Below, in pieces: positions 47,024-62,478 of a DNA stretch of 64,000 nt (positions are counted from its first letter, which is position 1; every line of letters begins with the position of its first letter). The notes beneath the pieces are model-generated. The model had not been told where the DNA came from. It searched no databases and was given only the letters and a program-made list of their open reading frames with translations. The stretch is from positions 3,558,425-3,622,424 of the forward strand of contig CP136052.1 in the NCBI GenBank assembly GCA_032620915.1. Direction: 5' to 3'. Position numbers and translations under genes: made by a program. Source of the stretch: Oscillospiraceae bacterium NTUH-002-81. Its GTDB lineage: Bacteria; Bacillota; Clostridia; Lachnospirales; Lachnospiraceae.

Positions 47024-47064
47024 GTGATTTTATCACGGAGAGTACCCCCGAAACAGGTTATAAT
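47024..47064 (+). promoter_or_regulatory. Crp/Fnr-type operator and promoter of the SDR gene (site A)
   Basis: GTGATTTTATCAC (47024-47036) followed by GG, then TATAAT (47059-47064). No -35 consensus. Dyad centre is 34 nt before the last base of the -10 box, about -41 from the likely start, as in class II activation. Confidence 0.75.
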
Positions 47065-47094
47065 ACGAGTACAAAAACACAAGGAGGTACTCTT

Positions 47095-47841
47095 ATGAGA
47101 CTGAAAGATAAAGTTGTAATTATCACCGGAGGCAGCCGTGGCATTGGTTACGCTACCGCAGACAAATTTTTGAAGGAAGGTGCTACGGTAATCCTGACCG
47201 CAAGCTCGCAAGGTTCTGCTGATAAAGCGGTTGAGCAGCTAAAAGAAAAATACCCTGATGCAACAGTTGCTGGAATCAGTCCTAACCTATCCAATTTGGA
47301 ATCTGTCCGCAATGCTTTCCGAGAAGCTGCCTCAAAATACGGTTGCATTGATATTCTGGTGAACAATGCCGGTGTATCCGAAAGCACTCCCTTTACCGAG
47401 TATACGGAGGAAACCTTTGACAAGGTTATGGATCTGAATGTAAAAGGCGTGTTCAATGCTACAAGAGCCGCCAGTGAGTGCATGATTGCAAAAGGTCACG
47501 GTGTTATTCTCTCCACCTCCTCAATGGTTAGCATTTACGGCCAGCCCAGTGGCTTTGCATATCCAGCATCCAAATTTGCTGTCAATGGCCTGACGGTTTC
47601 CCTTGCCCGGGAATTGGGTCCGAAGGGTATTCGAGTGAATGCAGTCGCTCCTGGTATTACCCTGACTGATATGATGAAAGCTGTTCCCAAGGAAGTAATT
47701 GATCCGCTCATCAAACAGATCCCCCTGCGCCGCCTGGGTCAGCCGGAGGATATTGCCAATGCATTTGTGTTCCTGGCATCTGACGAAGCATCCTATATCA
47801 CAGGTGTTGTACTCAGCGTAGACGGCATGGCAAGAACATAA
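47095..47841 (+). CDS. Short-chain dehydrogenase/reductase (BaiA/FabG-like)
   Basis: Start ATG 47095 behind AAGGAGG. 248 residues with the classical SDR pattern: cofactor loop TGGSRGIGYA, NNAG, catalytic Ser in LSTSSM, YPASK (Tyr-x3-Lys), and the C-terminal FLASDEASYITGVVLSVDG. The stretch QLKEKYPDATVAGISPNL resembles 3-alpha-hydroxysteroid dehydrogenase BaiA as I remember it, more than FabG, but substrate cannot be told. It uses NAD(P)H in the cytoplasm. It has its own operator-promoter of the island's common type, so it belongs to the redox regulon. Confidence 0.85.
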   Translation: MRLKDKVVIITGGSRGIGYATADKFLKEGATVILTASSQGSADKAVEQLKEKYPDATVAGISPNLSNLESVRNAFREAASKYGCIDILVNNAGVSESTPFTEYTEETFDKVMDLNVKGVFNATRAASECMIAKGHGVILSTSSMVSIYGQPSGFAYPASKFAVNGLTVSLARELGPKGIRVNAVAPGITLTDMMKAVPKEVIDPLIKQIPLRRLGQPEDIANAFVFLASDEASYITGVVLSVDGMART

Positions 47842-47901
47842 AAATCGGAAACAGGGCAGCTGGAAACGGCTGCCCTATCTTCAAAATATGGAGGTCTATA
47901 C

Positions 47902-48291
47902 ATGAAAAGATTTATTCCCATTTTAATGATGCTTCTACTTTTAACAGGTTGTGGAGCCCAGTCATCTGAAACTACCTATCGACAGATTTCCATGGAGGAA
48001 GCTGTCACGATGATGGAGGAGGAAACCGAATACATCATCCTCGATGTACGGACTGCTGAGGAATATAGTGAAAAGCATATTCCAGGTGCGATTAATATTG
48101 CCAACGAATCCATCGGCACAGAGGACATTCCGGAGCTGCCGGATAAAGATCAGTTGATTCTGGTATACTGCCGCAGCGGTAATCGGAGTAAGCAGGCCTC
48201 TGAAAAGCTGGTAAAACTGGGCTACACCAATATCGTTGAAATCGGCGGTATTAATAGTTGGCCCGGTGAAACCGTCGCCGGCGATAAGTGA
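47902..48291 (+). CDS. Rhodanese-domain lipoprotein
   Basis: 129 residues. Signal peptide MKRFIPILMMLLLLTGC with lipobox LTGC (Cys 17), so it is anchored outside the membrane. The rest is one rhodanese domain: YIILDVRTAEEYSEKHIPGAINI and the catalytic loop VYCRSGNRS with the sulfur-carrying Cys, then GYTNIVEIGGINSW. Rhodaneses carry persulfide sulfur. Follows the SDR gene after 60 bp, with a GC hairpin (47853-47878) between, so reading through from the SDR promoter is likely but partial. Ribosome site GGAGG. Confidence 0.88.
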   Translation: MKRFIPILMMLLLLTGCGAQSSETTYRQISMEEAVTMMEEETEYIILDVRTAEEYSEKHIPGAINIANESIGTEDIPELPDKDQLILVYCRSGNRSKQASEKLVKLGYTNIVEIGGINSWPGETVAGDK

Positions 48292-48328
48292 CAAAATCAC
48301 GGAAAAAGCAACGACTACTGGATATACT
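48288..48328 (+). promoter_or_regulatory. Crp/Fnr-type operator and promoter of the thioredoxin operon (site B)
   Basis: GTGACAAAATCAC (48288-48300) followed by GGAAAA, then TATACT (48323-48328). Dyad centre to end of -10 box: 34 nt, the same as site A. The site overlaps the stop of the rhodanese lipoprotein gene. Confidence 0.75.
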
Positions 48329-48362
48329 AAAGCCATAAAAAAGAAAACAGGAGGACTTAAAT

Positions 48363-48668
48363 ATGTCTGCTATCAATGTAAATAAAAACAATTTCAATCA
48401 AGAGGTTTTGAACTCGGACAAGCCCGTCCTGATGGATTTTTGGGCTCCCTGGTGTGGTCCTTGCCGCATGGTAGTTCCTCTGGTAGAGGAAATTGCCGAG
48501 GAGCGCTCCGATATCAAGGTTGTTAAAATTAATGTGGATGAGGAACAGGAACTGGCTATGCAGTTTGGTGTGATGAGCATTCCCACTCTGGTGGTTATGA
48601 AGAACGGCAAAGTCGTAAATCAGGCCACCGGTGCCAGACCTAAGGCTCAGATTCTCGCCATGCTGTAA
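48363..48668 (+). CDS. trxA: Thioredoxin
   Basis: 101 residues, a complete thioredoxin with active site WCGPC in [16 protein letters not shown], the cis-proline SIPTL and the C-terminal [14 protein letters not shown] loop. It reduces protein disulfides in the cytoplasm. First gene of an operon with a rhodanese (12 bp later) and a CoA-disulfide-reductase-like enzyme. Here it may also reduce protein persulfides produced by the rhodaneses. A second thioredoxin is fused to its reductase at 55853. Confidence 0.95.
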
Positions 48669-48680
48669 GGAGGTGCAAAG

Positions 48681-49001
48681 ATGGGATTTTTTGATTTCCT
48701 GAAAGGCCCTGACATCAATCAGGGTGTCAAAGAATATAGCGTTACGGATGGCGCAGTCCTGCTGGATGTTCGTACCCCTGACGAATACCGGCAGGGGCAT
48801 ATCCCCGGCAGTAAAAATATTCCTTTGCAGTCCATTAACAAAGTGGCTGGCGTGATTGACAATAAAGCTACCCCCATTTTTGTTCATTGTCTCAGCGGTG
48901 CAAGAAGCCGTCAGGCAACTGCTATTTTGCAGCAGATGGGTTATACCAATGTGAAAAACATAGGCGGAATTTCCGCTTATGCAGGAAAGGTGGAACGCTA
49001 A
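48681..49001 (+). CDS. Single-domain rhodanese
   Basis: 106 residues without signal peptide, so cytoplasmic. Rhodanese pattern VLLDVRTPDEYRQGHIPGSKNIPLQSI, catalytic loop VHCLSGARS with the active Cys, and GYTNVKNIGGI. Its stop TAA is one base from the ATG of the flavoprotein gene, so they are translated together. It likely passes sulfane sulfur between thioredoxin and the downstream enzyme. Confidence 0.92.
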   Translation: MGFFDFLKGPDINQGVKEYSVTDGAVLLDVRTPDEYRQGHIPGSKNIPLQSINKVAGVIDNKATPIFVHCLSGARSRQATAILQQMGYTNVKNIGGISAYAGKVER

Positions 49002-49002
49002 T

Positions 49003-50694
49003 ATGAAAGTTGTTATTGTAGGTGGTGTGGCTGGCGGTGCTACCGCTGCCGCCCGCATTCGCAGACTAAATGAGCAGGCAGAAATTGTGGTTTTTGAGCG
49101 GTCAAAGTTTATTTCCTATGCCAACTGCGGTCTGCCTTACTATATCGGAGATGTAATTACCGATCCGGAAGATCTGACCTTGCAGACCCCGGAGAGCTTC
49201 TTCTCCCGTTTCCGTGTTACCATGAAGGTACGGCATGAGGTGACCGCCATTCATCCTGACAGAAAGACGGTATCTGTGAAGAACCTCGAAACCGGTGAAG
49301 AATTTGAAGAAAGCTATGATAAGCTGATCCTCTCTCCCGGTGCAAAGCCCACGCAACCGAAGCTGTCCGGTATGGATGTGGACAGGCTGTTCACGCTGCG
49401 TACCGTGGAAGATACCTTCAAAATCAAAAACTATATCAATGAAAACAAGCCGAAGTCTGCCGTACTTGCAGGCGGTGGCTTCATTGGATTGGAGCTTGCG
49501 GAAAATCTTCGGGAGTTGGGTACGGATGTAACCATCGTGCAGAGCCAAAAGCAGCTCATGATGCCTTTTGATGCAGATATGGCAGCGTTTATTCACGCAG
49601 AAGTCAGAAAGCACGGCATTCATCTGGCGTTGGGGCATAAGGTGGAAGGCTTCACCGAAAAAGACGGCGGTGTAGATGTTCTGCTCTCGGACGGCACATC
49701 CCTACACGGAGATATGGCGGTACTTGCCATCGGTGTAACGCCGGACACTCATCTTGCCAAAGATGCCGGATTGGAGCTGGGCGTAAGGGGTAGCATTGTG
49801 GTGAATGACCGCATGGAAACTTCTGTGCCTGACATTTACGCCGCAGGAGACGCCGTACAAGTCAAGCATTTTGTCACAGGAGAAGATACCCTCATCTCCC
49901 TTGCAGGACCGGCGAATAAGCAGGGACGCATCATTGCCGACAATATTTGCGGTGGCGACAGCCGATACATGGGTAGTCAGGGCAGCTCTGTAATCAAGGT
50001 GTTCGATTTGACCGCCGCCTCCACCGGTATCAACGAAACCCATGCGAAAAATGCAGGGCTGAATGCAGATACGGTCATTCTGTCCCCCATGAGCCATGCA
50101 GGATATTATCCCGGCGGCAAGGTTATGACTATGAAGGTGGTTTTTGAAAAGGAAACCTACCGTCTGTTGGGCGCACAGATCGTGGGCTACGAGGGCGTAG
50201 ATAAGCGGATCGACGTATTAGCAACTGCTATCCGTGCAAAAATGACAGCCGTAGAGCTGAAAGACTTAGACCTCGCCTATGCGCCGCCCTATTCCTCGGC
50301 AAAAGATCCTGTCAATATGGCAGGATTTATGATCGACAACATTGCAAATGGAACACTGAAACAGTGGCATCTTGCGGATTTGGAAAGTCTGCCGATGGAC
50401 GGCAGTGTCACGCTTCTTGACGCCAGAACCGTAGGAGAATACCGGCGTGGTCATATCGACGGCTTCTTAAACATTCCGGTGGATGATCTTCGAGAGCGAT
50501 TGAACGAGCTTGACAGGAGCAAACCTATCTATGTGATCTGCCAAAGCGGACTGCGCAGCTACATTGCCAGCCGCATTTTGGAGGGCAACGGTTTCGCTGC
50601 CTACAATTTCTCAGGTGGTTTCCGCTTCTACGATACTGTTATCAATGACCGTGCGCTTGTGGAATCTTCGTTTACTTGTGGTATGGATAAATAA
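49003..50694 (+). CDS. CoA-disulfide reductase-like flavoprotein with C-terminal rhodanese domain
   Basis: Start ATG 49003. 563 residues: FAD domain (VVIVGGVAGGATAAARIRR), the single redox Cys in ISYANCGLPYYIG, NAD(P)H domain (AVLAGGGFIGLELAENLRELG), FAD motif VPDIYAAGDAVQV, dimer domain, and from about 465 a rhodanese domain (LLDARTVGEYRRGHIDG, catalytic VICQSGLRS). This layout is that of NADH-dependent persulfide/polysulfide reductases (Npsr) and CoA-disulfide reductase-rhodanese (CoADR-RHD) proteins. It reduces CoA or protein disulfides or persulfides with NAD(P)H, and so ties the operon to sulfane sulfur and oxidative stress. Confidence 0.92.
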   Translation: MKVVIVGGVAGGATAAARIRRLNEQAEIVVFERSKFISYANCGLPYYIGDVITDPEDLTLQTPESFFSRFRVTMKVRHEVTAIHPDRKTVSVKNLETGEEFEESYDKLILSPGAKPTQPKLSGMDVDRLFTLRTVEDTFKIKNYINENKPKSAVLAGGGFIGLELAENLRELGTDVTIVQSQKQLMMPFDADMAAFIHAEVRKHGIHLALGHKVEGFTEKDGGVDVLLSDGTSLHGDMAVLAIGVTPDTHLAKDAGLELGVRGSIVVNDRMETSVPDIYAAGDAVQVKHFVTGEDTLISLAGPANKQGRIIADNICGGDSRYMGSQGSSVIKVFDLTAASTGINETHAKNAGLNADTVILSPMSHAGYYPGGKVMTMKVVFEKETYRLLGAQIVGYEGVDKRIDVLATAIRAKMTAVELKDLDLAYAPPYSSAKDPVNMAGFMIDNIANGTLKQWHLADLESLPMDGSVTLLDARTVGEYRRGHIDGFLNIPVDDLRERLNELDRSKPIYVICQSGLRSYIASRILEGNGFAAYNFSGGFRFYDTVINDRALVESSFTCGMDK

Positions 50695-50746
50695 GAATGT
50701 CCCACATTTCCTGTATCATTGGAAATGTGGGGTAGGTATTGCTTTG

Positions 50747-50787
50747 GTGATGTCATCACGGAAGAATATCATGCTTTCTGCTATAAT
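50747..50787 (+). promoter_or_regulatory. Crp/Fnr-type operator and promoter of the ferredoxin operon (site C)
   Basis: GTGATGTCATCAC (50747-50759), a perfect dyad apart from its central base, followed by GGAAGA and TATAAT (50782-50787). Centre-to-end-of--10 distance is again 34 nt. A hairpin CCCACATTTCC / GGAAATGTGGG (50699-50731) before it may end the previous operon. Confidence 0.75.
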
Positions 50788-50820
50788 ACCAACTGTTAAG
50801 GGAACATGGGGAGGGCTATT

Positions 50821-51030
50821 ATGACGGCGATCAAAAAGAAACGAAAGGCATTCGTGGATCAGGAGTATTGCGTTGCTTGCGGATGTTGTGTTAAGGTTTG
50901 CCCCCTTGGGGCAATTCAAATCAGGCAAGGTGTGGCTGCACAGGTGAATTTGGAAAAATGCGTTGGGTGCGGCAAGTGTGCAAAGGAATGTCCGGCAAGC
51001 GTAATTGTGATTCAGGAGGCAGAGGCATGA
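50821..51030 (+). CDS. 2x[4Fe-4S] ferredoxin
   Basis: Start ATG 50821 after GGGAGG. 69 residues with two full cluster motifs, CVACGCCVKVCP and CVGCGKCAKECP, and a short basic N-terminus. It carries low-potential electrons in the cytoplasm. Its stop overlaps the ATG of the next gene (ATGA), so the two are coupled and probably work as one electron-transfer pair. Confidence 0.93.
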   Translation: MTAIKKKRKAFVDQEYCVACGCCVKVCPLGAIQIRQGVAAQVNLEKCVGCGKCAKECPASVIVIQEAEA

Positions 51031-51614
51031 GCAAGCAGAAAAAGCGTTGGTATGATTATCTCTGGATCGCATCGCTGACCTACTTAGTACTGGGATTCTT
51101 TAATATCCTGTTTGCGTGGCTGGGGTTGATTTGTTTTCTTGTTCCACTGATTATTTCCATAGCCAAAGGAACAAAAGGATATTGTAACCGCTACTGCGGA
51201 CGGGGACAACTTTTCGGCATCTTGGGTGGACGCTTCGGACTATCACGGAAAAAGGATATTCCCAGGTGGATGAAAAGCAAATGGTTTCGGTATGGTTTCC
51301 TGATTTTCTTTTTTGTGATGTTTTTTCAGATGCTCTGGAATACTTATTTGGTTTTTGCAGGAGCGCAGGACTTAAAACAAGTCGTGACACTGCTCTGGAC
51401 ATTCAAATTACCTTGGAATTGGGCATATCACGGGACACTGTTCCATCCGGGCGTTACACAGTTTGCCTTTGGCTTTTACAGCGTGATGCTGACTTCGACC
51501 GTGCTTGGACTGATTACGATGGTACTGTATAAGCCACGAAGCTGGTGCGTTTACTGCCCGATGGGTACAATGACGCAGCTTATTTGTAAGGTAAAGGACA
51601 AAAAAGACGGATAA
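51027..51614 (+). CDS. Membrane 4Fe-4S binding protein (NapH/RnfC-chain-like)
   Basis: 195 residues starting in the ATGA overlap with the ferredoxin stop. About four membrane helices (for example LWIASLTYLVLGFFNILFAW, FRYGFLIFFFVMFFQMLW, FYSVMLTSTVLGLITMVLY). Cys motifs are YCNRYCGRGQLF near 60 and WCVYCPMGTMTQLIC near 178, placing Cys at the cytoplasmic face. This is the NapH/CcoG-type family of membrane iron-sulfur proteins that move electrons between quinone or ferredoxin and a reductase. With the ferredoxin, it may feed the island's reductases or a membrane thiol path (DUF6132/CcdA at the far end); inference. Confidence 0.8.
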   Translation: MSKQKKRWYDYLWIASLTYLVLGFFNILFAWLGLICFLVPLIISIAKGTKGYCNRYCGRGQLFGILGGRFGLSRKKDIPRWMKSKWFRYGFLIFFFVMFFQMLWNTYLVFAGAQDLKQVVTLLWTFKLPWNWAYHGTLFHPGVTQFAFGFYSVMLTSTVLGLITMVLYKPRSWCVYCPMGTMTQLICKVKDKKDG

Positions 51615-51652
51615 AACAATCGCCATCGGTACATACATACCGATGGCGATTT
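51614..51652. terminator. Bidirectional intrinsic terminator
   Basis: AATCGCCATCGGTA / TACCGATGGCGATT with a short loop, between the NapH-like gene (+) and the convergent Crp/Fnr gene (-). Confidence 0.8.
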
Positions 51653-51665
51653 CGTAACGATTTCA

Positions 51666-52322
51666 TTATTCGCTCAGTCCCCGGAGCTTCTCTTCGTCTG
51701 TGATGGTCACAGTACCACGGGACAGTTTGACCATGCCCTCGCTCTGGAAATACCGCAACATCCGGGTGATGACTTCCCGGTGAGAGCCGAGGTGGTTGGC
51801 AATGATTTCATGGGTGATTTTTAATTCGCTTGTGTTTTCAATGGTAGATTCCTCAAGTAAAAAAGCGGCTACCCGTTTATCAAGGCTTTTCCACATAATC
51901 TGTTCCATAAGCCACATTACATCGGAAAACCGACTTGCCATCAGTTCGTTGGTGTAGTTTGCAACCGGTGCAGATTCTTCCATAATGCTCTTGTAAATCT
52001 CAGAGGGGATCACCCACAGTTCCGTATCTTTTTCCGCCTCAATCGTGATTTCAAACTGAATAGAGCGCATGATGCAGGAGGCAGAGAACAGACACATATC
52101 CCGATCAAACAAACGATAGAGGCTAATCTCCCGTCCTTCATCGGAAAGAATATAGGCACGAAGCTGTCCGCTTCTTACCAGCAGAAGACCGGTACACTCC
52201 ACAGTTCCGTTGTGAATCACAGTCCCTTTGTCCACTTTTCGTAAAACTGCATTTCGCTCCAAAATCTGCTGCTGGGTCGGTGTCAGTTTGTTCCAAATTG
52301 GAAAATAAGATGAAAAATCCAT
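51666..52322 (-). CDS. Crp/Fnr-family transcriptional regulator of the redox island
   Basis: Start ATG 52322 behind AAGGAGG; upstream open frame has no relation. 218 residues: cyclic-nucleotide-binding-type fold (about 10-125; GTVIHNGTVECTGLLLVRSGQLRAYILSDEGREISLYRLFDRD), long dimer helix (about 125-150) and a winged HTH (about 150-215). Recognition helix GSHREVITRMLRYF has R-E-x-x-x-R, the residues CRP uses to read GTGA. It lacks the N-terminal Cys cluster of FNR but has Cys43, Cys77 and Cys83, which could sense thiol or persulfide stress. The five GTGA-N5-TCAC promoters around it are its likely targets. Confidence 0.9.
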   Translation of the reverse strand: MDFSSYFPIWNKLTPTQQQILERNAVLRKVDKGTVIHNGTVECTGLLLVRSGQLRAYILSDEGREISLYRLFDRDMCLFSASCIMRSIQFEITIEAEKDTELWVIPSEIYKSIMEESAPVANYTNELMASRFSDVMWLMEQIMWKSLDKRVAAFLLEESTIENTSELKITHEIIANHLGSHREVITRMLRYFQSEGMVKLSRGTVTITDEEKLRGLSE

Positions 52323-52346
52323 GGGTACACCTCCTTGAATACACAT

Positions 52347-52412
52347 AGTATAAAATAATTTATAGCATATGTCAATAACTCCATTGACATATGGGAAAGG
52401 GAGATGTACAAT
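52347..52412. promoter_or_regulatory. Divergent promoters with -35 boxes inside a perfect 10-bp dyad
   Basis: CATATGTCAA (52366-52375) and TTGACATATG (52384-52393) are exact inverted repeats. Plus strand: TTGACA 52384-52389, 17 bp, TACAAT 52407-52412, toward the DUF134 gene. Minus strand: TTGACA 52370-52375, 17 bp, TATACT 52347-52352, toward the Crp/Fnr gene. The dyad could be an operator shared by both. Confidence 0.75.
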
Positions 52413-52457
52413 GATCGTATAAATGGCATATGCCGCAAATAATGTGGAGGTGAATCT

Positions 52458-53228
52458 ATGCCAAGACCGAGAAAATGTAGAAAAGTATGTTGTCTGCCAG
52501 ATAATGATGGTTTTGTTCCGGTTCGTGGCGGCGAGGAACTGACTCCCATTGTCCTGAATGTGGATGAGTATGAAGCTATTCGTCTGATTGACCGTGAAGG
52601 TTTTTCTCAAGAGCAATGCGGAGAGTATATGCATATTGCCAGAACAACGGTTCAGCAGATTTATGCAGCTGCCCGCAAAAAACTGGCCGATACGCTGGTT
52701 GAGGGACTTCCTCTGCGAATCGAGGGAGGGGATTTTACACTCTGTAGCGGTAACAGCGCAGCCTACGGGTGCAGAAATTGCTATCAGCAAAAAATCCATC
52801 CGATGCACAAAAAACCGAAAGGAGATCATATTATGAGAATCGCAGTTACTTACGAAAACGGAGAAATCTTTCAGCACTTCGGTCACACCGAACAGTTCAA
52901 AATCTATGATGTGGAAAATGGAAATATCATTTCGTCTGAGATTGTGGATGCGGGCACCAGCGGCCATGGTGCGCTGGCAGGAGTTCTGAGCGCCCTGAAG
53001 GTGGATGCCCTGATCTGTGGCGGTATTGGCGGCGGTGCACAGATAGCACTCAGCGATGCGGGTATCCGACTTTACGGTGGTGTTTCCGGAAGCGCTGATG
53101 TAGCAGCAGAAGCGCTGGTAGCAGGTGAGCTGGACTTCAATCCAAATGTCCGGTGTGATCATCACGACCACCATGGGGAAGGCCACTCTTGCGGTTCCCA
53201 CAGCTGCGATCATCACTCCTGCGGCTAA
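52458..53228 (+). CDS. DUF134 DNA-binding protein fused to a NifX/NafY-like (dinitrogenase Fe-Mo cofactor) domain
   Basis: 256 residues. Residues 1-115 are DUF134: MPRPRKCRKVCCLPD, FVPVRGG, an HTH (NVDEYEAIRLIDREGFSQEQCGEYMHIARTTVQQIYAAAR) and Cys residues near YGCRNCYQQ. Residues 125-235 are a NifX-type domain (RIAVTYENGEIFQHFGHTEQFKIYD ... ICGGIGGGAQIALSDAGIRLYGGVSG). The tail of about 20 residues is rich in His and Cys (HHDHHGEGHSCGSHSC) and should bind metal. An internal ATG at 52834 with AAAGGAG could also give the NifX part alone. Likely a metal- or cluster-responsive regulator; divergent from the Crp/Fnr gene. Confidence 0.85.
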   Translation: MPRPRKCRKVCCLPDNDGFVPVRGGEELTPIVLNVDEYEAIRLIDREGFSQEQCGEYMHIARTTVQQIYAAARKKLADTLVEGLPLRIEGGDFTLCSGNSAAYGCRNCYQQKIHPMHKKPKGDHIMRIAVTYENGEIFQHFGHTEQFKIYDVENGNIISSEIVDAGTSGHGALAGVLSALKVDALICGGIGGGAQIALSDAGIRLYGGVSGSADVAAEALVAGELDFNPNVRCDHHDHHGEGHSCGSHSCDHHSCG

Positions 53229-53232
53229 ATAG

Positions 53233-53272
53233 GTGATAAAGTCACGGAATTTGTGTCGTGATTTGGTAAAAT
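53233..53272 (+). promoter_or_regulatory. Crp/Fnr-type operator and promoter of the rubredoxin operon (site D)
   Basis: GTGATAAAGTCAC (53233-53245) followed by GGAATT, then a TAAAAT -10 box (53267-53272). Centre-to-end-of--10 distance is 33 nt, one less than the other four. Confidence 0.65.
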
Positions 53273-53297
53273 ATAGACACAGGAGGCGGTAAAATCT

Positions 53298-53456
53298 ATG
53301 AAACAATATGTTTGCAGCATTTGTGGCTACGTTCACGATGAAGCTGTCGGTGATCCTGACAATGGAATTGCACCCGGCACAAAATGGGAAGACCTTCCTG
53401 AGGATTTTGAGTGCCCTCTGTGCAGCGTAGGAAAAGATCAGTTCTCTTATGAATAA
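53298..53456 (+). CDS. Rubredoxin
   Basis: 52 residues, start ATG 53298 behind AGGAGG. The iron site is complete: CSICGYVHD (Cys 6 and 9) and [12 protein letters not shown] (Cys 39 and 42), with the usual [23 protein letters not shown] core. It passes single electrons to superoxide reductase and peroxidases in anaerobes. It is followed by desulfoferrodoxin and ferritin in one operon under site D. Confidence 0.96.
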
Positions 53457-53502
53457 CCCGTAAATTCTGTAGTAAAAACAAATCATGTAAAGGAGAGTAA
53501 CT

Positions 53503-53880
53503 ATGAACGCAAAATTTTATATCTGCCGTCATTGCGGCAATCTGGTTGGTATGATTCACGACGCAGGTGTTCCCATGATGTGTTGTGGTCAGAAAATGGA
53601 AGCTCTTGAGCCTAACACCGTAGAAGCCAGCGGCGAAAAGCATCTGCCTGCTGTTACTGTTGAAGATGGTGCAATCCATGTCAATGTGGGTTCTGTAGAT
53701 CATCCTATGCTTCCGGAGCATTTCATTGAGTGGGTCTATGTTCAGACCGAAAACGGTGGTCAGCGTAAGGTATTGAAGCCCGGTGACGAACCCCATGTCA
53801 CCTTCTTCCTGGGAGACGATAAAGCAGTAGCTGTCTATGCTTATTGCAACCTCCACGGCCTGTGGAAAACTGAAATTTAA
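53503..53880 (+). CDS. Desulfoferrodoxin (superoxide reductase, 2Fe type)
   Basis: 125 residues. The N-terminal desulforedoxin-like domain has CRHCGNLVG and MMCCGQKM (four Cys for one Fe). The catalytic domain keeps the His4Cys site: GEKHLPAV, VDHPMLPEHF, and CNLHGLW, with the active-site Lys in GEKH. It reduces superoxide to peroxide without making oxygen, taking electrons from the rubredoxin encoded 46 bp upstream. This is the main oxygen-defence enzyme of strict anaerobes. Confidence 0.96.
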   Translation: MNAKFYICRHCGNLVGMIHDAGVPMMCCGQKMEALEPNTVEASGEKHLPAVTVEDGAIHVNVGSVDHPMLPEHFIEWVYVQTENGGQRKVLKPGDEPHVTFFLGDDKAVAVYAYCNLHGLWKTEI

Positions 53881-53897
53881 CATGGAGGTTCTTGCAA

Positions 53898-54407
53898 ATG
53901 AACGAAAAAGTACATGCGCTTATCAATCAACAGATAAATAAGGAATTCTATTCCGCATACCTTTATCTTGATTTTTCAAACTATTTCGAGGAAGCCGGGC
54001 TTGACGGCTTTGCCAACTGGTATAAAATCCAGGCTCAGGAAGAGCGTGACCACGCCATGCTTTTCTATCAATACCTGCAAAACGAAAACCAGAAGGTAAC
54101 GCTCGAAGCCATTGACAAGCCTGATCTGAATGCAGCTTGCCATATGGATGTTTTGAAGGCAGGTCTTGAGCACGAAAAATATGTGACCTCGCTGATTAAT
54201 GATATCTATAGTGAGGCTTACGAAGCAAGGGATTTCCGTACCATGCAGTTCCTCGATTGGTTTGTGAAAGAACAAGGTGAAGAAGAAACCAATGCAAATA
54301 ATTTGATTTCCAAAATTGAACTCTTTGGCTCCGATCCCAAGAGCTTGTATATGCTCAATCAGGAATTGGCAACACGAATTTACTCTGCTCCTTCTTTGGT
54401 TCTTTAA
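53898..54407 (+). CDS. ftnA: Ferritin (bacterial non-haem)
   Basis: Start ATG 53898 behind GGAGG. 169 residues in the four-helix fold with the ferroxidase ligands: Glu 16 (INKEFYSAYLYL), QAQEERDHAMLFYQYL (Glu and His), DWFVKEQGEEETNAN. It stores iron and so limits Fenton chemistry, fitting its place behind superoxide reductase, whose product is peroxide. Last gene of the rubredoxin operon; a terminator follows 40 bp later. Confidence 0.95.
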   Translation: MNEKVHALINQQINKEFYSAYLYLDFSNYFEEAGLDGFANWYKIQAQEERDHAMLFYQYLQNENQKVTLEAIDKPDLNAACHMDVLKAGLEHEKYVTSLINDIYSEAYEARDFRTMQFLDWFVKEQGEEETNANNLISKIELFGSDPKSLYMLNQELATRIYSAPSLVL

Positions 54408-54447
54408 TCACTATAGCCTATAGATGATGGAAGCATAAAAGGCAGTA

Positions 54448-54481
54448 TGCCGCCTGTCGGTTTCCGGCAGGCGGTTTTTTT
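54448..54481 (+). terminator. Intrinsic terminator after ferritin
   Basis: CCGCCTGTCGG-TTT-CCGGCAGGCGG followed by T7. The next gene starts only 15 bp later, so it may be reached by read-through. Confidence 0.9.
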
Positions 54482-54495
54482 ACAGGAGGATACCT

Positions 54496-55447
54496 ATGAG
54501 TCAAGACAATGCCAGCTTTACCTTTTTTACATCGCATAGAGGAAGTAGAACTGAACATTGAGGATGGACGCTGGCAATCTGCTTTGGCATTGGCGCTGAC
54601 TTTGCCCGATATTTGCGGCGGCATTGCTTTCCCAGAAATTGTAAAACGTTATCGGGATGGGCGTGCTGTTCTGGACAGAAATCAGAGACCAACCCGTGAT
54701 GTAGGAAATCAATATATTCGTTGGTTTGATACATACGCAGCACCTTTCTTTAAAGTCTCTGCGCAGGATATCTCTCCCTATATCTGCGGAGAACGATGCT
54801 GGCAGCTTCGGTGCGAATACCTGCACCAGAACAAAGGCTTTGCAAATACTGAGGACAATACCTCGATTCGTTTTCACTTGGGTGTGAATTGCGGAACCTC
54901 AGTTTGCCAACTGGATAGAATAAGTTCTGCCAACAGCCTCACGGACATCCGTATTGATATTGAACAGTTTTGCCGAAGAATGTGCCGAGCGGTCAGAGCT
55001 TATTATGAAGCAGTACATACAGAGAAAGATTTCAACCTTTATAATACGCCTGTTCTGGATTTTATAAAGGCATCACAAGATGAGAAATCAAATGCTACGA
55101 TTGCCATTATGTGCAGTGATTCAGCCTATGGGAACGGACTGAGGCTGGTACTTCAAAACTTATCCAAACATATCCTTGTATTTGAAACCCCGGAAGCTGC
55201 AAGAAAAGAACTTGGCAAGAAAAAGCCTATGCTTTGGATTGTTACAGAACCTCTGACAAAACAGCCAGATCAGCCATGGAGGGCAGATAAAAGAACACCC
55301 GTGATTCTTCTGTCCAATCAACCGGAATCGGAAATAGCGATTGAAAAGAATGCGGGGAAATTGACCGTCTTGCCCTTGCCTGTTCTACTGGAAACTCTCC
55401 GTAATGCAGTTAAGGCTTATCTTTTGACAAAGGAGGATAAGAACTAA
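54496..55447 (+). pseudogene. Uncharacterised protein with HEPN-like N-terminal and receiver-like C-terminal regions, frameshifted in a T6 run
   Basis: ATG 54496, 7 bp after AGGAGG, reads MSQDNASFTF and then goes off frame at T6 (54523-54528); with five T it continues LHRIEEVELNIEDGRWQSAL for about 317 residues. Residues 10-190 are helical, with DICGG, RDVGNQYIRWFDTY and GERCWQLRCEYLHQ, the last resembling the RxxxxH-type motif of HEPN ribonuclease-like domains. Residues 200-317 form an alpha/beta unit like a receiver (TIAIMCSDSAYGNGLRLVLQN ... MLWIVTEP) without a clear phospho-Asp. Function unknown. It is translated with a small coiled-coil membrane protein. The break is probably an error. 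Confidence 0.65.
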
Positions 55448-55449
55448 GA

Positions 55450-55755
55450 ATGATTATTATTATCTTTTCACTCATCCTGTTGCTTCTTGCTTATTTCCTC
55501 TATGTCCAAAAGAAAAAAGTGATATCACTTCAACAGCAGATTGGTGACCTGCAAAATAAAAATAGTATTCTTGAGAAACAAGAGCTTGCAGCTGAACAGC
55601 ATAACGATTATCTTAGGCAGGAAGCAAACACGGTTCATTTATATGCTTCTCTCTCGCTGGAGGAGACAAGAAAAACATCCATAAAAGAAAAGCAGTCTCA
55701 AATCATCCGTTCCAGTGAACATATCCTCGAATTACTTAATAGCGAAAAAGTTTAG
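55450..55755 (+). CDS. Small membrane protein with coiled coil
   Basis: 101 residues, starting 3 bp after the previous stop. One N-terminal membrane helix (IIIIFSLILLLLAYFLYVQ), then a coiled coil (ISLQQQIGDLQNKNSILEKQELAAEQHNDYL) and a charged tail. Not a recognised family. Tight spacing to the HEPN/receiver-like gene suggests that the pair works together, possibly at the membrane. Confidence 0.65.
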   Translation: MIIIIFSLILLLLAYFLYVQKKKVISLQQQIGDLQNKNSILEKQELAAEQHNDYLRQEANTVHLYASLSLEETRKTSIKEKQSQIIRSSEHILELLNSEKV

Positions 55756-55780
55756 AGCGGCAGCAATGCCGCTCTTTTTA
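55754..55780 (+). terminator. Intrinsic terminator
   Basis: AGAGCGGCA-GCAA-TGCCGCTCT followed by TTTTA, directly after the coiled-coil gene's stop and immediately before operator E. Confidence 0.85.
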
Positions 55781-55781
55781 T

Positions 55782-55822
55782 GTGATATCATCACCGAAAT
55801 GTTATTTTAGATTGGCTATACT
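55782..55822 (+). promoter_or_regulatory. Crp/Fnr-type operator and promoter of the Trx-TrxR operon (site E)
   Basis: GTGATATCATCAC (55782-55794) followed by CGAAAT, then TATACT (55817-55822). Centre-to-end-of--10 distance is 34 nt. Confidence 0.75.
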
Positions 55823-55852: not shown

Positions 55853-57136
55853 ATGGCAGTTATCAATATCAATAGAAATCAATTTGAAGAAATGGTGCAT
55901 AGCGGAAAAACTGTTCTGGTGGAATTTTCAGCCCCTTGGTGCGTATATTGCCGCCGTCTGGCTCCGGCATTGGAAAGCGTGGCTGAGGAATATAAGGATA
56001 CGCTGGTATTCACTGCGGTTAACATTGATGATGAGCCGGAATTGGCTGAGGCCGAAGCTATAGAAGTTGTCCCTACTCTGCTGATCTATCACAGCGAACA
56101 GGCTCTTGGCTCTATCGTCGCTCCGGAATCCAGGGCGCAGTTGGTGGCGTTCATTGAAGAAACTTTACAGCACCAGACGCAGGAAGCAACTACTGTGCAG
56201 CATATTTACGACATGATCGTGGTAGGAGGTGGTCCCGGCGGCTATACCGCAGCCCTTTATGCCGCCAGAGCAGGTATGAACACCGTGGTTTTAGAGAAGT
56301 TATCCGCTGGTGGGCAGATGGCTCTGACCGAGCAAATCGACAACTATCCCGGCTTCGAGGATGGTATCGACGGCTTCTCTCTGGGAGAAAAGATGAAGCG
56401 AGGAACGGAACGATTTGGAGTGGAAACCAAGCTGACTGAGGTGCTGTCCCTGGAACTGTCCGGTTCTATAAAGAAAGCGGTGACCAGCGAAGGCCCTATG
56501 TACGCAAAGACCATTGTGCTCGCTACCGGAGCTGGCCCCAGAGAGCTGGGTGTTGATGGTGAACAGGAGTTAATCGGCAAGGGTGTCCACTACTGCGCAG
56601 CCTGTGACGGAATGTTCTATCGGAACAAAACGGTTGTCATCGCAGGAGGTGGCAATACCGCTGCGGCGGATGCCCTTATCCTCTCCCGTATCTGCAAAAA
56701 AGTCATCGTCGTTCACCGGAGAGATACCTTAAAAGCAACAAAGATCTACCATGAGCCTTTGATGAAAACGGAAAATGTAGAATTCCTCTGGGACAGTGAG
56801 ATCGTCACACTGCTCCATAACGAAAAGCTGACCGGTATCCAGACTCGGAATGTGAAAACCGGAGAGGAAAGCACGCTTGCTTGCGACGGTGTGTTTGTCA
56901 GCGTCGGAAGAAAACCTTCCACCGAATTGGTGAAAGATCAGATTACGATTGATCCGGCTGGATACATTATCGCAGATGAGAGTACCTGCACCAACATCCC
57001 CGGTGTATTCGCCGTTGGGGATGTCCGCACAAAGGCATTGCGGCAGGTCGTGACTGCTGTAGCCGATGGGGCAACCGCTGTTCACTATGCAGAGGAATAT
57101 TTAGCAGGAGGAATACGAGATGAAAGAAAATATTAA
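55853..57136 (+). CDS. Thioredoxin-thioredoxin reductase fusion protein
   Basis: Start ATG 55853 behind AAAGGAG (an ATG at 55823 has no ribosome site). 427 residues. Residues 1-105 are a thioredoxin with an altered active site, APWCVYCRRL instead of WCGPC, and cis-Pro VVPTL. Residues about 120-427 are a low-molecular-weight thioredoxin reductase: FAD (VVGGGPGGYTAALYAARAG), redox pair HYCAACDG, NADPH (VIAGGGNTAAADALI), and FAVGDVRTKALRQVVTAVADGA. Fusions with the thioredoxin at the N-terminus are less usual than the mycobacterial C-terminal type. It moves NADPH electrons to disulfides, here perhaps to the membrane proteins encoded next. Confidence 0.93.
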   Translation: MAVININRNQFEEMVHSGKTVLVEFSAPWCVYCRRLAPALESVAEEYKDTLVFTAVNIDDEPELAEAEAIEVVPTLLIYHSEQALGSIVAPESRAQLVAFIEETLQHQTQEATTVQHIYDMIVVGGGPGGYTAALYAARAGMNTVVLEKLSAGGQMALTEQIDNYPGFEDGIDGFSLGEKMKRGTERFGVETKLTEVLSLELSGSIKKAVTSEGPMYAKTIVLATGAGPRELGVDGEQELIGKGVHYCAACDGMFYRNKTVVIAGGGNTAAADALILSRICKKVIVVHRRDTLKATKIYHEPLMKTENVEFLWDSEIVTLLHNEKLTGIQTRNVKTGEESTLACDGVFVSVGRKPSTELVKDQITIDPAGYIIADESTCTNIPGVFAVGDVRTKALRQVVTAVADGATAVHYAEEYLAGGIRDERKY

Positions 57137-57335
57137 AAAATGGCTGAAGCCAATTCTATTTACCGTAGGCGGCGCTCTGGTCGGCCTTGCATATTACTAC
57201 TTTGTGGGATGCTCCACAGGAGCTTGTCCGCTGACTTCTAACCCGTTCATCACGATGGCCCATATGGGCTTTATCGGCTGGCTGTTGTCCGGTGTGTTCG
57301 GAAATGGGTGTAGCGGTTCATGCAATATGCAATAA
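57120..57335 (+). CDS. DUF6132-type small membrane protein
   Basis: 71 residues overlapping the end of the Trx-TrxR gene by 17 bp. Two membrane helices (ILFTVGGALVGLAYYYFVG and ITMAHMGFIGWLLSGVFG) with three or four Cys in CSTGACPLTSNP and GNGCSGSCNMQ. The family is uncharacterised but repeatedly sits with rhodaneses and thioredoxins, consistent with thiol or sulfur transfer at the membrane. Its last codons overlap the ccdA start. Confidence 0.75.
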   Translation: MKENIKKWLKPILFTVGGALVGLAYYYFVGCSTGACPLTSNPFITMAHMGFIGWLLSGVFGNGCSGSCNMQ

Positions 57336-57549
57336 CTTTCCTGGAGGGAATCATCACCTTCATATCGCCCTGCCTGCTTCCTATGCTGCCCATCTATATC
57401 TCCTATTTTGCAGGCGGTGGGCAACACACCACAAAAAGACTTTGTTGGACGCATTGGGATTTGTTAGTGGATTTACCGTAATTTTTGTAGCAATGGGCGC
57501 AGAAACCCTGCAGCGAGGAATTGACATGATTATTTCCGACAGGCGATGA
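57320..57549 (+). pseudogene. ccdA: CcdA-type cytochrome c biogenesis/thiol transporter, truncated
   Basis: ATG 57320 overlaps the DUF6132 gene. The frame reads MQYAITFLEGIITFISPCLLPMLPIYISYFAGG, the CcdA/DsbD helix 1 with the redox Cys-Pro, then breaks at an A5 run (57433-57437; six A give TTKKTLLDALGFVSGFTVIFVAMGA). It then ends in unrelated residues at TGA 57549, after about 75 codons; normal CcdA has over 200. So the gene is cut at the border with the mobile element. Intact, it would carry reducing power from thioredoxin across the membrane. Confidence 0.75.
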
Positions 57550-57576
57550 TCAGCATATTATATCGAAGTAAAATAT

Positions 57577-57617
57577 AAAAAAGCGGCCACGGTCTCACAC
57601 TCCAAAACGGAATGGAC
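57577..57617 (-). terminator. Intrinsic terminator after the relaxase
   Basis: Minus strand ATAGCCACGGTC ... GACCGTGGCCGCT followed by T6. Fifteen bases past the relaxase stop, close to the border with the redox island. Confidence 0.8.
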
Positions 57618-57631
57618 CGTGGCTATTTGCT

Positions 57632-59050
57632 TTAACGGAAGTTCTTCTTTTGCTCTTTCTCTTGTTCTTTTTCCTGCTCTTTCTGCCTGTCGATATTCAG
57701 AATCGTTTCAACCGTCCGTTTGGCAATCAGTAATTCTTCTTTCTCTTTTCTTATCTGACGGTACTCAGCGTAGTCTTGCTTTTTCTGGACTGCCAGCTGA
57801 TGAAATTCCTCATACAGAGATTGACTGGATGGAAGCTTTGTAATCTGCAATTCGTCAAAGGCTTGCTTCGCCGCTTTATGAATTGTGATTTCCTGACGGT
57901 GTTCCTCAAAGAACTTTTTGCTATATCCAGACTTGCGGTACTCGATATAGATTTGTCTTGTGTTGCGATAATTTTTGATGTGCTGCTGCAATGCCTGAAC
58001 CTCAACCATTCGTTTTTCTGCGGTCTTGATGGAATCAGACAATTCATCGAAACGGGCAGACAGCTTTTCAATATGAGCAGTCAGATCATCATAGTTGCCC
58101 AAGCCTTTTTCTTTCAGAAGAATGACGGTACGGGCGGCTTCTTTTCGGTTGAACTTCTTCGCCCACTTTTCATAACCGATGGTTTTACCTTCTGCCATCT
58201 TTGCCTGAATATCAATCAGCATCTGGAACTGCTTCGGGGCAGGAGCTTTGGCAAAGCCGCCTTTTGATTTATGCAGGTTCTTACCAGAGATAACAGCTTG
58301 AACTTCCTCTTTGCTATATCCTTCGCCCAGAGAACGCAGCCGAATGAAACGCTTCTGATTCTCGCCCTTGAACGCAGGCTGCTTTCCATCCTTGAACTCA
58401 AATCCCATGTTAGCCAGAGCCTGAGTGAAGCCATCGAAGCTCTTTGGTTTCTGCCTCAGCACCGCATCAATCGCATCACATAATTCGTCACGCTGGGTAC
58501 GCTTCTTGGGATAAACGGTTCTTTTCTGGCGCTCCCGATATGGCTTCGGTGTAATAATGGACAGACCGTGTTCCAGGCAAACCATATCGCTGAGTCTTTG
58601 AACGGCCAGACCAGAAAGGAAGAAATTCTTGAATTTCCGTGTGGCATCCAGCGAGGTCGAATTATAAATGATATGGTTGTGAATGTGAGATTTGTCGATG
58701 TGGGTCGCAACGATGAAAGCGTGTTTGCCCTTTGTCCATCGCATCGCTGTTTCATAGCCGACCTGGTTCGCTTCTTCCGGCGTGATTTCTCCCGGCTTAA
58801 AAGACTGGCGTATCTGGTATGCGATGATATTGTTCTTCTGCTGTCTGCCGGTAATATGTTGGTACTGCCGTTTGGAAAGCAGAAATTCTTCATCCGCTGT
58901 CTTTGGATCACACTCATAGGAGCTGATAAATTCTCCATCATTGGTTTTTGCGGCGTTTTGTGAGTAGTCGGTTCTGTCTGCCAAACATTGAGCGACGGTC
59001 TTTCCCTTATTCACATGAAGCGCAATCAATCTTGTTGCTGCCATTCTCAT
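57632..59050 (-). CDS. MobP-type relaxase (mobilization nuclease)
   Basis: Start ATG 59050 (MRMAATRLIALHVNKGK) after GGAAGGAAG. 472 residues. Nuclease domain in the first 200: GRQQKNNIIAYQIRQSFKPGEITPEEANQVGYETA and the metal site HIDKSHIHNHIIYNS, the HxDxxHxHNH pattern of VirD2/MobP relaxases; the catalytic Tyr is probably one of those in the N-terminal part. Residues 300-472 are a long coiled coil ending in EKEQEKEQEKEQKK repeats. It nicks oriT and leads the DNA strand into the conjugation channel. Same-strand neighbours upstream are mobC and cargo genes. Confidence 0.9.
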   Translation of the reverse strand: MRMAATRLIALHVNKGKTVAQCLADRTDYSQNAAKTNDGEFISSYECDPKTADEEFLLSKRQYQHITGRQQKNNIIAYQIRQSFKPGEITPEEANQVGYETAMRWTKGKHAFIVATHIDKSHIHNHIIYNSTSLDATRKFKNFFLSGLAVQRLSDMVCLEHGLSIITPKPYRERQKRTVYPKKRTQRDELCDAIDAVLRQKPKSFDGFTQALANMGFEFKDGKQPAFKGENQKRFIRLRSLGEGYSKEEVQAVISGKNLHKSKGGFAKAPAPKQFQMLIDIQAKMAEGKTIGYEKWAKKFNRKEAARTVILLKEKGLGNYDDLTAHIEKLSARFDELSDSIKTAEKRMVEVQALQQHIKNYRNTRQIYIEYRKSGYSKKFFEEHRQEITIHKAAKQAFDELQITKLPSSQSLYEEFHQLAVQKKQDYAEYRQIRKEKEELLIAKRTVETILNIDRQKEQEKEQEKEQKKNFR

Positions 59051-59106
59051 CACTTCCTTCCCAAAAAGAAAAAGCCACCGGTCGGTGACTTTTCTCTGAT
59101 ATTATC

Positions 59107-60046: not shown

Positions 60047-60670
60047 TTAACTATTTATCAATTCTTGCAGTTCATCGACAAACCGGCAGATATGGAATCC
60101 ATCACATACCGCATGATGAACTTGAACTGCTAAAGGAAGCAAAATTCTCCCATCTTCCTCGTAATATTTCCCCAAGGTGAAAATAGGAATCAAATAATCA
60201 TATCCTTTCTGCAAATTCAGATTAAAACCATCAAATGTTGACCACGGTATCATAGATACCGTAAAAACATTTTCCGGAACATCTGGTTTTCCTATCATGC
60301 TGTGATTACTTCCATACCGTTGAATATCGTTTTCATAAGCCCTTGAAAATTCTTCAATGTTCAGCATATATTCAGTCCAAAGGTCAGAAAATGTCTCTGT
60401 GTCCTCATGAAATACGGTATAGCTTGGTAGCATCTCGTCATATATTCCCAATTCACCCGCTTGGTTGATTGCCGTTCTGAACTCCGGATGACGGTTTACG
60501 ATCGTTGTAAGATAATAAAGCATTGCAGGGTATAATTTCATTCGCTTCTTTTTTATTTGCGTAATATCCAATTTCACAGTCATACTGTATGTACAAGGTA
60601 CATTAGTAAAGTAGTGTTCAAAATATTCATTTCGCTTCCAACTACTTCTATCAATTTTTTCAAATACCAT
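60047..60670 (-). CDS. catP: Type A chloramphenicol O-acetyltransferase (CatP-like)
   Basis: 207 residues, the length of clostridial CatP. The catalytic His is in VQVHHAVCDGFHICRFV; the Asp-Arg pair and the PWSTFDGFNLNLQKGYDYLIPIFT stretch are intact. N-terminus MVFEKIDRSSWKRNEYF and core CTYSMTVKLDIT resemble CatP of Tn4451/Tn4453 closely as remembered, with scattered differences. It acetylates chloramphenicol with acetyl-CoA, giving resistance. It has its own promoter (60731-60759) and sits inside the mob region, between mobC and the relaxase, so it moved there as cargo. Confidence 0.93.
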   Translation of the reverse strand: MVFEKIDRSSWKRNEYFEHYFTNVPCTYSMTVKLDITQIKKKRMKLYPAMLYYLTTIVNRHPEFRTAINQAGELGIYDEMLPSYTVFHEDTETFSDLWTEYMLNIEEFSRAYENDIQRYGSNHSMIGKPDVPENVFTVSMIPWSTFDGFNLNLQKGYDYLIPIFTLGKYYEEDGRILLPLAVQVHHAVCDGFHICRFVDELQELINS

Positions 60671-60826: not shown

Positions 60827-61158
60827 TTACTGTATTGAGGACAGACGGACAAGGACTTCTTTCATATCCGTCCAAATCTCCTCCAGTCGTTTTTGCAAAT
60901 CCTCAATGTCGGCATGATAGATGCTCCCCGTTTCATTCGCTCGCTTTGCGTACTGGTTCAGATTGTTGGAGCAGATTCGCAAAGGGAAACCAGAGCTTTC
61001 ACATCCTGCAAATCCAGTCTGATGCAGTACCCATCCATCGCCATTTTCCGCAGATAGGCTCCCATGCTGCGGATGCCAAGCTCGTCCATCTTCTCATGGA
61101 TTCGCTCGACCTCCTCTTTGGATGCAAGGAAATGAACATCCTGGTCTCGCTTTGTCAT
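60827..61158 (-). pseudogene. mobC: MobC-like relaxosome accessory protein, frameshifted
   Basis: ATG 61158 overlaps the helicase stop (TAATG). It reads MTKRDQDVHFLASKEEVERIHEKMDELGIRSMGAYLRKMAMDGYCIRLD, a ribbon-helix-helix MobC. It then ends early at 60958; with one more A in the run 60981-60983 (plus strand), it goes on RICSNNLNQYAKRANETGSIYHADIEDLQKRLEEIWTDM to a stop at 60827, the full 110 residues. MobC helps the relaxase open oriT. Here a base is missing rather than extra; error or real cannot be told. Confidence 0.75.
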
Positions 61159-62265: not shown

Positions 62266-62478
62266 AATGCACGGGTGATCTCGCCCATAGGGACAGCCAT
62301 CACATTCTGACTTGGGTTTCGGCGGCAAAGAGATTAAGTAGTAGCAATTATCTCTACCCAGACGGCAACCCTTTCTGCCATTCGTCCAGAAGTAACAGTA
62401 ATGACAGTCGCTCGGCTTGTCTGCGGCATAAACAGGCTTGCTCAAATAAAACACCTCCCATCTCTTGTATTTGCCCAT
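62262..62478 (-). pseudogene. Cys-rich small protein of conjugative elements, 3'-truncated and joined to the helicase
   Basis: From ATG 62478 (or TTG 62445, 8 bp after GGGAGG) it reads AADKPSDCHYCYFWTNGRKGCRLGRDNCYYLI ... CDGCPYGRDHPCIG, four Cys pairs in a zinc-finger-like pattern, a gene type common in Lachnospiraceae mobile elements. At CIG it runs into the helicase in another frame, so a deletion joined the two. The intron 3' end lies just upstream of the ATG. Confidence 0.6.

Follow-up and report, generated by a model that had tools for sequence, protein, structure and literature searches.

Promoters and genes of the island

The 64,000-nt stretch of Oscillospiraceae bacterium NTUH-002-81 analyzed here (the window, lying in a genome of one contig of 3,622,424 bases [3.62 Mb]) contains a 9-kb island in which five promoters share the dyad GTGA-N5-TCAC, an NGA tail beside it, and a −10 box at a near-constant distance (the offset, counted from the dyad end to the −10 start). 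An earlier reading made from the letters alone (the sequence-only reading) had described these dyads and proposed that the Crp/Fnr-type protein encoded among them controls a dedicated regulon. We consider it probable (about 0.85) that the island represents a horizontally mobile regulon of a class-II-type Crp/Fnr activator, self-contained in its own genome and unusual in its half-site spacing; binding and activation are deduced from promoter architecture and comparative genomics. The five sites are as follows.

47024..47064, + strand: site 1, dyad 47024-47036, GGA tail, −10 TATAAT at 47059-47064; precedes the short-chain dehydrogenase/reductase (SDR) gene
48288..48328, + strand: site 2, dyad 48288-48300, GGA tail, −10 TATACT at 48323-48328; precedes trxA
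50747..50787, + strand: site 3, dyad 50747-50759, GGA tail, −10 TATAAT at 50782-50787; precedes the ferredoxin gene
53233..53272, + strand: site 4, dyad 53233-53245, GGA tail, −10 TAAAAT at 53267-53272 (offset 21); precedes the rubredoxin gene
55782..55822, + strand: site 5, dyad 55782-55794, CGA tail, −10 TATACT at 55817-55822; precedes the thioredoxin-thioredoxin reductase (Trx-TrxR) gene

The genes of the island, with the models supporting them, are listed below.

47095..47841, + strand: SDR gene (Pfam adh_short_C2; open reading frame [ORF] scanned from 47014)
47902..48291, + strand: rhodanese-domain protein with, by eye, a lipoprotein-like N terminus (Pfam Rhodanese)
48363..48668, + strand: thioredoxin gene, trxA (Pfam Thioredoxin)
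48681..49001, + strand: rhodanese-domain protein (Pfam Rhodanese)
49003..50694, + strand: CoA-disulfide-reductase-like flavoprotein with a C-terminal rhodanese (scanned from 48979; CoA_CoA_reduc 528.5 bits, below the cutoff of 578.8)
50821..51030, + strand: 2[4Fe-4S] ferredoxin-type protein (Pfam Fer4)
51027..51614, + strand: Fer4_5 membrane protein, the NapH-like gene of the sequence-only reading (Pfam Fer4_5)
51666..52322, − strand: proposed regulator, a Crp/Fnr-family protein of 218 amino acids (aa) (Pfam HTH_Crp_2 and cNMP_binding; relative of PDB 3dv8; associated with the sites)
52347..52375, − strand: consensus promoter of the regulator, TTGACA-17-TATACT, without a dyad (promoter scan)
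52458-53228, divergent from the regulator: gene for a DUF134/NifX-like protein
53298..53456, + strand: rubredoxin gene (Pfam Rubredoxin)
53503..53880, + strand: desulfoferrodoxin gene (Pfam Desulfoferrodox; NCBIfam dfx_rbo under its cutoff)
53892..54407, + strand: ferritin-like protein gene (Pfam Ferritin)
55853..57136, + strand: Trx-TrxR fusion gene, start codon chosen by us (Pfam Thioredoxin and Pyr_redox_2; TRX_reduct above its cutoff)
57120..57335, + strand: DUF6132 protein gene
57320..57481, + strand: ccdA-type ORF of 53 aa (partial DsbD_TM match, 3.3e−6, slightly under cutoff)

All five dyads lie on the forward strand at the positions given in the sequence-only reading. Their offsets are 22, 22, 22, 21, and 22 nt for sites 1 to 5, and the distances from dyad center to the end of the −10 box are 34, 34, 34, 33, and 34 nt, which agrees with the 33 to 34 nt claimed before. 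Exact GTGA-N5-TCAC occurs six times in the window, against 0.69 expected, and none of 100 shuffles reached six. The sixth copy (56796) is not a member of the regulon, being located within the Trx-TrxR gene and lacking a −10 box. One-mismatch dyads are at chance level (24 versus 22.5 expected), and the signal in the window therefore resides in the exact arms. Chance as the origin of the dyads is ruled out by the window count together with the reversed-sequence and spacer controls given below. A sigma-70 consensus scan, at chance level overall (19 promoters versus 15.9 in shuffles), listed the promoter of the regulator and none of the five target promoters.

Restriction of the architecture to the island

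The whole genome carries 33 exact N5 dyads, compared with 17 for the reversed pattern. Among the 66 dyad orientations, the five sites and a dyad at 2,965,193 have a −10 box (at least 5/6 matches) at 21 to 22 nt. The latter was rejected as a member, as it has no NGA and no evident gene in front of it; its position is roughly 250 nt past the 3′ terminus of an unfused trxB. The full architecture (dyad, NGA tail, and −10) was found at the five island sites only, whereas a motif equally common at unrelated promoters was the outcome that, according to the sequence-only reading, would have spoken against a regulon. When two mismatches were tolerated in the architecture, the two strands gave 38 and 32 matches (70), against 20 and 20 (40) in the control, and no further exact member appeared in the genome; the extra matches, not inspected one by one, were taken for noise. 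The visible regulon does not extend beyond the 9-kb island, in which the regulator is encoded as well. Around the lone NGA-less dyad with a −10 box (G000:C1:2,964,000-2,966,700; L025) there are genes for a further Crp-type protein and a second trxA-trxB pair, this one unfused.

Half-site spacing and consensus in related loci

A contig scan found 364 relatives of the regulator, of which 80 (72 to 83% identity) were kept, their loci totaling 1.17 Mb. These loci have 144 N5 dyads, versus 1 to 39 for each of the other spacers from 0 to 13 and 3 for the reversed N5 control. The −10 boxes (at least 5/6) concentrate at two offsets, 22 with 90 boxes and 21 with 21, and no more than 10 fall at any one of the remaining offsets between 14 and 31. 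When the NGA and the −10 were required, spacer 5 gave 100 sites and spacers 2 to 4 and 6 to 9 gave 0 each. The 5-bp arm spacing of the sequence-only reading is thus reproduced (100 sites for spacer 5, 0 for spacer 6) in the search that it had proposed, namely, for N5 dyads with −10 boxes near orthologues in related genomes. Conversely, the places chosen by NGA and −10 alone comprised 100 with perfect arms, 8 with a single mismatch, 1 with two, and 18 with three, and the three-mismatch set looks like background; with up to two arm mismatches, the reversed sequences gave 0 matches and the forward ones 109. By a looser count, 69 of the 80 loci have a site.

For the consensus, 153 sites were dereplicated to 105 (88 at offset 22 and 17 at offset 21), the selection having fixed the arms and the −10 and left the tail free. 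Their logo reads GTGA-[TC]-N-[TA]-[CT]-[AG]-TCAC-[AG]-G-A-A, with A or T as the dyad center base in 104 of the 105; at offset 22, T at −17 (61/88) and G at −14 (64/88) are frequent. The G of the NGA tail is present in 105/105 sites and its mirror base C in 8/105, an asymmetry that mostly rules out the NGA as part of the dyad. This is less clear for the following A, found in 96/105, as its mirror position is A or T in 100/105. Offset 21 occurs mostly at rubredoxin-type promoters (53267-53272 and relatives), while the other classes mostly have 22.

If the −10 box is set at −12 to −7, the dyad covers −47 to −35 with its center at −41 (−40 at offset 21). Counted in this way from the −10, the sites have the layout of class II promoters (dyad near −41.5 and a poor −35), as the sequence-only reading had supposed. 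The GA of the tail falls at −33/−32 (offset 22), in a hexamer C-N-G-A-A-N placed 17 bp from the −10 (16 bp at offset 21). TTGACA has a GA at the equivalent place, and we read the NGA as a putative remnant of a −35 element. The earlier statement that these promoters have no −35 box is therefore only half right: TTGACA is present at none of the five sites, but an asymmetric, invariant G, usually as GA, occupies the −35 position. At class II promoters, the TCAC of CRP is found at −38 to −35. The downstream TCAC of the dyads coincides with this place, and the subunit displaced by the missing base pair would then be the upstream one.

The regulator and its association with the motif

The product of 51666-52322 belongs to the Crp/Fnr superfamily according to its Pfam scores (HTH_Crp_2, 58.7 bits, cutoff 27; cNMP_binding, 35.7 bits, cutoff 27.5), and PDB 3dv8 aligns to its residues 1 to 216 (E 4.8e−111). 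Six NCBIfam models match it, none at its cutoff, and a search of its own genome at E 0.001 returned the regulator itself as the sole match. The translation contains the GSHREVITR quoted in the sequence-only reading. R182, E183, and R187 of this helix, which we take to be the equivalents of CRP R180, E181, and R185, are unchanged in 131/131 aligned regulators (21 of them below 60% identity, some duplicates [L109 and L035], matches spanning less than about 190 residues being left out). R180 and E181 of CRP are linked to motif bases in the excerpts consulted of PMC1274295. The R-E-x-x-x-R helix and the GTGA/TCAC arms together point to a CRP-like half-site with a predicted contact between the two. 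The window regulator has three cysteines in total; in the alignment, Cys43 and Cys83 are invariant (131/131) and Cys77 is present in 128/131.

The motif follows this protein family. Calling the regulator at E 1e−20, the pattern (offsets 21 to 23) was found in 92 of 111 same-family genomes with the regulator and in 39 of 188 without it (299 genomes; Fisher, P = 9e−27); the numbers of sites were 215 and 53, and those of the reversed controls 23 and 32, respectively. Among 299 genomes of the phylum (offsets 21 to 22), it was present in 21/27 with the regulator and 26/272 without it (P = 2e−14). These tables were copied by hand, and their totals agree with the automated tallies (131, 111, 47, and 27). 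Even at only 32 to 33% identity, regulators are accompanied by a site no more than about 250 bases away (G552, G556, G599, and G606). In 20 regions chosen around distant regulators or sites, 18 have a site, and the N5 dyads number 25, versus 1 to 5 for each of the spacers 2 to 4 and 6 to 9. Both the dedicated regulon and the island Crp/Fnr protein as its likely regulator, as suggested in the sequence-only reading, are backed by this co-occurrence.

Two genomes without a regulator at E 1e−20 have conspicuous sites. G573 carries a well-formed one at C19:3104-3144 (GTGACTTTGTCAC-TGA, TATAAT); this genome may have a gap or a more distant regulator. G029, a draft of about 110 contigs, has four sites resembling those of G289/G218, and its missing regulator is likely an assembly gap.

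Several observations weigh against such a regulon. No exact architecture was found in 19/111 family genomes and 6/27 phylum genomes that have the regulator; these may use degenerate sites or other signals. In the reverse direction, 39 family and 26 phylum genomes match without a regulator, the family site number being near background (53 versus 32 in the control). By the looser count, 11 of the 80 related loci have no site. Five of these are contigs of less than 7 kb and two (L101 and L107) have one-mismatch sites, while L047, L061, L084, and L092, all longer than 10 kb, have none even at two mismatches. The permuted-arm dyad TGGA-Nk-TCCA, searched without the NGA and −10, is not rare in the 80 loci (37 at k = 5, with a maximum of 64 at k = 11). 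Finally, the co-occurrence is partly the co-inheritance of neighboring genes and is a strong, not an independent, support for binding.

Target genes and mobility of the module

We tallied the first genes after the sites in the window and the 80 loci by similarity to the window proteins (154 site orientations). They were thioredoxin (40), rubredoxin-domain (21), Trx-TrxR (18), SDR (16), ferredoxin (15), rhodanese (7), Crp (2), DUF6132 (1), and desulfoferrodoxin (1) genes, with 33 unassigned, many of which correspond to the second reading direction of the palindrome. Pfam named further genes behind other sites, i.e., rubrerythrin, a ferredoxin-thioredoxin reductase chain, CcdA, a CcdA-redoxin fusion, MsrAB (offset 23), and, in L043, a heavy-metal P-type ATPase, a like protein being found in L076. 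At L172, a flavodiiron-type gene is read from a thioredoxin site on the side that lacks the NGA, and its status as a target is unsure. The target set is mostly one of disulfide, persulfide, and oxygen defense.

At the DNA level, Lacrimispora amygdalina (L029) shares 98.8% identity with parts of the island and 92% with the regulator segment. Stretches from the rubredoxin/desulfoferrodoxin genes to those downstream share about 95% identity with Oscillibacter valericigenes An907 (L042) and Mogibacterium kristiansenii (L063), and other loci match parts of the island at 86 to 93%. Overall, 14/80 loci have such DNA matches (more than 300 bases, at least 85%). Oscillibacter belongs to a different order from Lachnospiraceae, the family of the host, and this near-identity of island parts across orders suggests that the module moves between families as a mosaic.

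Proposed mechanism and alternatives

In the mechanism that we propose, the regulator would be made from its own consensus promoter and would bind as a dimer to GTGA-Y-N-W-Y-R-TCAC, its arms 5 bp apart, centered at about −41. It would then recruit RNA polymerase in class II fashion to promoters composed of a good −10 and a degenerate −35, whose conserved part would be the GA of the NGA tail beside the dyad. This would switch on the genes for thioredoxin/thioredoxin reductase, rhodanese, CoA-disulfide-reductase-like enzymes, ferredoxin, and superoxide, peroxide, and oxygen defense. The favored sensing step would be the oxidation or persulfidation of Cys43, Cys77, or Cys83. The candidate signals are oxygen, disulfide, persulfide, and heme; oxygen or persulfide is suggested by the target genes, and the three conserved cysteines provide the best lead. 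More tentatively, and with somewhat less than even odds, the protein may represent a distinct Bacillota branch of the Crp/Fnr superfamily whose half-sites lie 9 bp apart from center to center, instead of 10, a cysteine-based persulfide or oxidant sensor that activates a portable module of sensor, operators, and detoxification enzymes.

Another protein might bind the dyads and leave the neighboring Crp/Fnr gene a bystander. The genome has other Crp-type candidates (eight HTH_Crp_2 matches, five above the family cutoff), and the DUF134 gene (52458-53228) is divergent from the regulator. This is very improbable, given that motif presence tracks the regulator family across the phylum. The DUF134/NifX-like protein itself is ruled out as the binder, since 41 of the 47 related loci without a detected relative of it keep a site, and among the 20 further regions, 14 of the 16 without one have a site as well. 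A scarcely more probable alternative is chiefly repression, in which the regulator on the dyads would block the −35 region and leave it upon a signal. The dyad does overlap the −35 position, and a bound dimer could exclude the polymerase. A repressor, however, needs neither a fixed distance of 21 to 22 nt between dyad and −10 nor a degenerate −35, and the sites were also unlisted as sigma-70 promoters. From operators sought upstream of the −10, we infer an activator: the dyad keeps a constant position next to a degenerate −35, and the scan lists the promoter of the regulator and not the five others.

Within the same regulon, the sensor could be a bound heme or metal instead of reactive cysteines, which we regard as unlikely, if clearly less so than the two preceding alternatives. 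According to the excerpts of PMC6955866, PgRsp of Porphyromonas gingivalis, modeled on PDB 3DV8, binds heme, with spectra unaffected by single replacement of Cys76, Met78, or His85, and the heavy-metal ATPase genes with sites in L043 and L076 (checked by Pfam in L043) would also fit a metal signal. The conservation of Cys43, Cys83, and Cys77 and the thiol, persulfide, or oxygen enzymes that form most of the targets argue, weakly, for cysteine sensing, as conserved cysteines could bind metal or heme too.

Comparison with known regulators

The regulator resembles the Escherichia coli CRP and FNR class II activators in its superfamily fold, its GTGA half-site with the R-E-x-x-x-R helix, and a dyad near −41, and differs from them in having 5 bp instead of 6 bp between GTGA and TCAC. 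FNR uses four cysteines for its [4Fe-4S] cluster, whereas the window protein has three. Unlike in CRP, a cAMP-contact pattern was not recognized by eye. The closest structure, 3DV8, is that of a Crp/Fnr protein of Eubacterium rectale, used as a modeling template in PMC6955866 (organism according to its excerpts); no operator or regulon of this protein was found in the literature searched. PgRsp is likewise a Crp/Fnr redox regulator of an anaerobe, likened here by description and not by sequence. It differs in binding heme and in regulating hmu, bcp, and itself by electrophoretic mobility shift assay, and no operator consensus was seen in the same excerpts (PMC6955866).

HcpR and HcpR2, Crp/Fnr proteins of Clostridia and other bacteria, also control a small redox/nitric oxide regulon (PMC1274295, in excerpts). 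Their motifs (wTGTGAnnnnnnTCACAw, wyTTGACnnnnGTCAArw, and GTAACnnnnGTTAC) all have 6 bp between the four-base arms, which rules out HcpR as the identity of the present protein, and their targets are hcp and frdX, hcp being absent from the target classes listed here. The part consulted of a Clostridioides difficile hcpR paper (PMC12915319) had no operator useful for comparison. The Rrf2 protein C0FN14, encoded near the BOOR genes in Lachnospiraceae, is similar in that it has been proposed to regulate the oxygen-stress response of gut Clostridia and has neighboring rubrerythrin and thioredoxin genes; it belongs to an unrelated Fe-S protein family and has another core target (PMC13404960, in excerpts). 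No published description of the present regulon or operator was recognized in the literature searched, which did not extend to subscription journals or RegPrecise.

The sensing of oxygen and reactive sulfur in gut anaerobes such as Lachnospiraceae is poorly known. In the excerpts consulted, the candidate regulator that a 2026 preprint describes as novel comes from another family (PMC13404960), while a study of C. difficile deduces that “a common still uncharacterized regulator” governs the induction of thioredoxin genes by oxygen (PMC10880999). The regulator described here is from a little-studied family occurring in many gut Clostridia, and the system is also carried by the tractable commensal Roseburia inulinivorans (L070). 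The regulator is now defined sharply enough, with its operator and targets, for a direct test. Its operator deviates from the 6 bp that separate the arms in the Crp/Fnr motifs known to us, and the solved relative 3DV8 is available to ask why. If the distinct-branch reading with a cysteine sensor is true, it would assign a function to the family of the 3DV8 structure, and gut Clostridia would have a known thioredoxin/rubredoxin regulator.

Neighboring features

A perfect 11-bp inverted repeat, CATATGTCAAT-N6-ATTGACATATG (52366-52393), spans both −35 boxes of the divergent regulator and DUF134/NifX-like promoters and is perhaps an operator for the DUF134/NifX-like protein. The interval between the ferritin and Trx-TrxR genes (54509-55755) contains two ORFs, of 312 and 101 aa, that match no Pfam model. 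Near the 53-aa ccdA-type ORF, a MobA/VirD2-type relaxase ORF (57632-59053) runs in the opposite direction (the two spanning 57320-59053), and the last operon of the island seems to be cut by a mobilization region. Farther downstream, three features on the − strand were judged by eye from the translations: an ORF resembling chloramphenicol acetyltransferase at 60047-60670, a portion of a helicase-like ORF at 61158-62303, and a reverse transcriptase of the group II intron type at 62586-63875.

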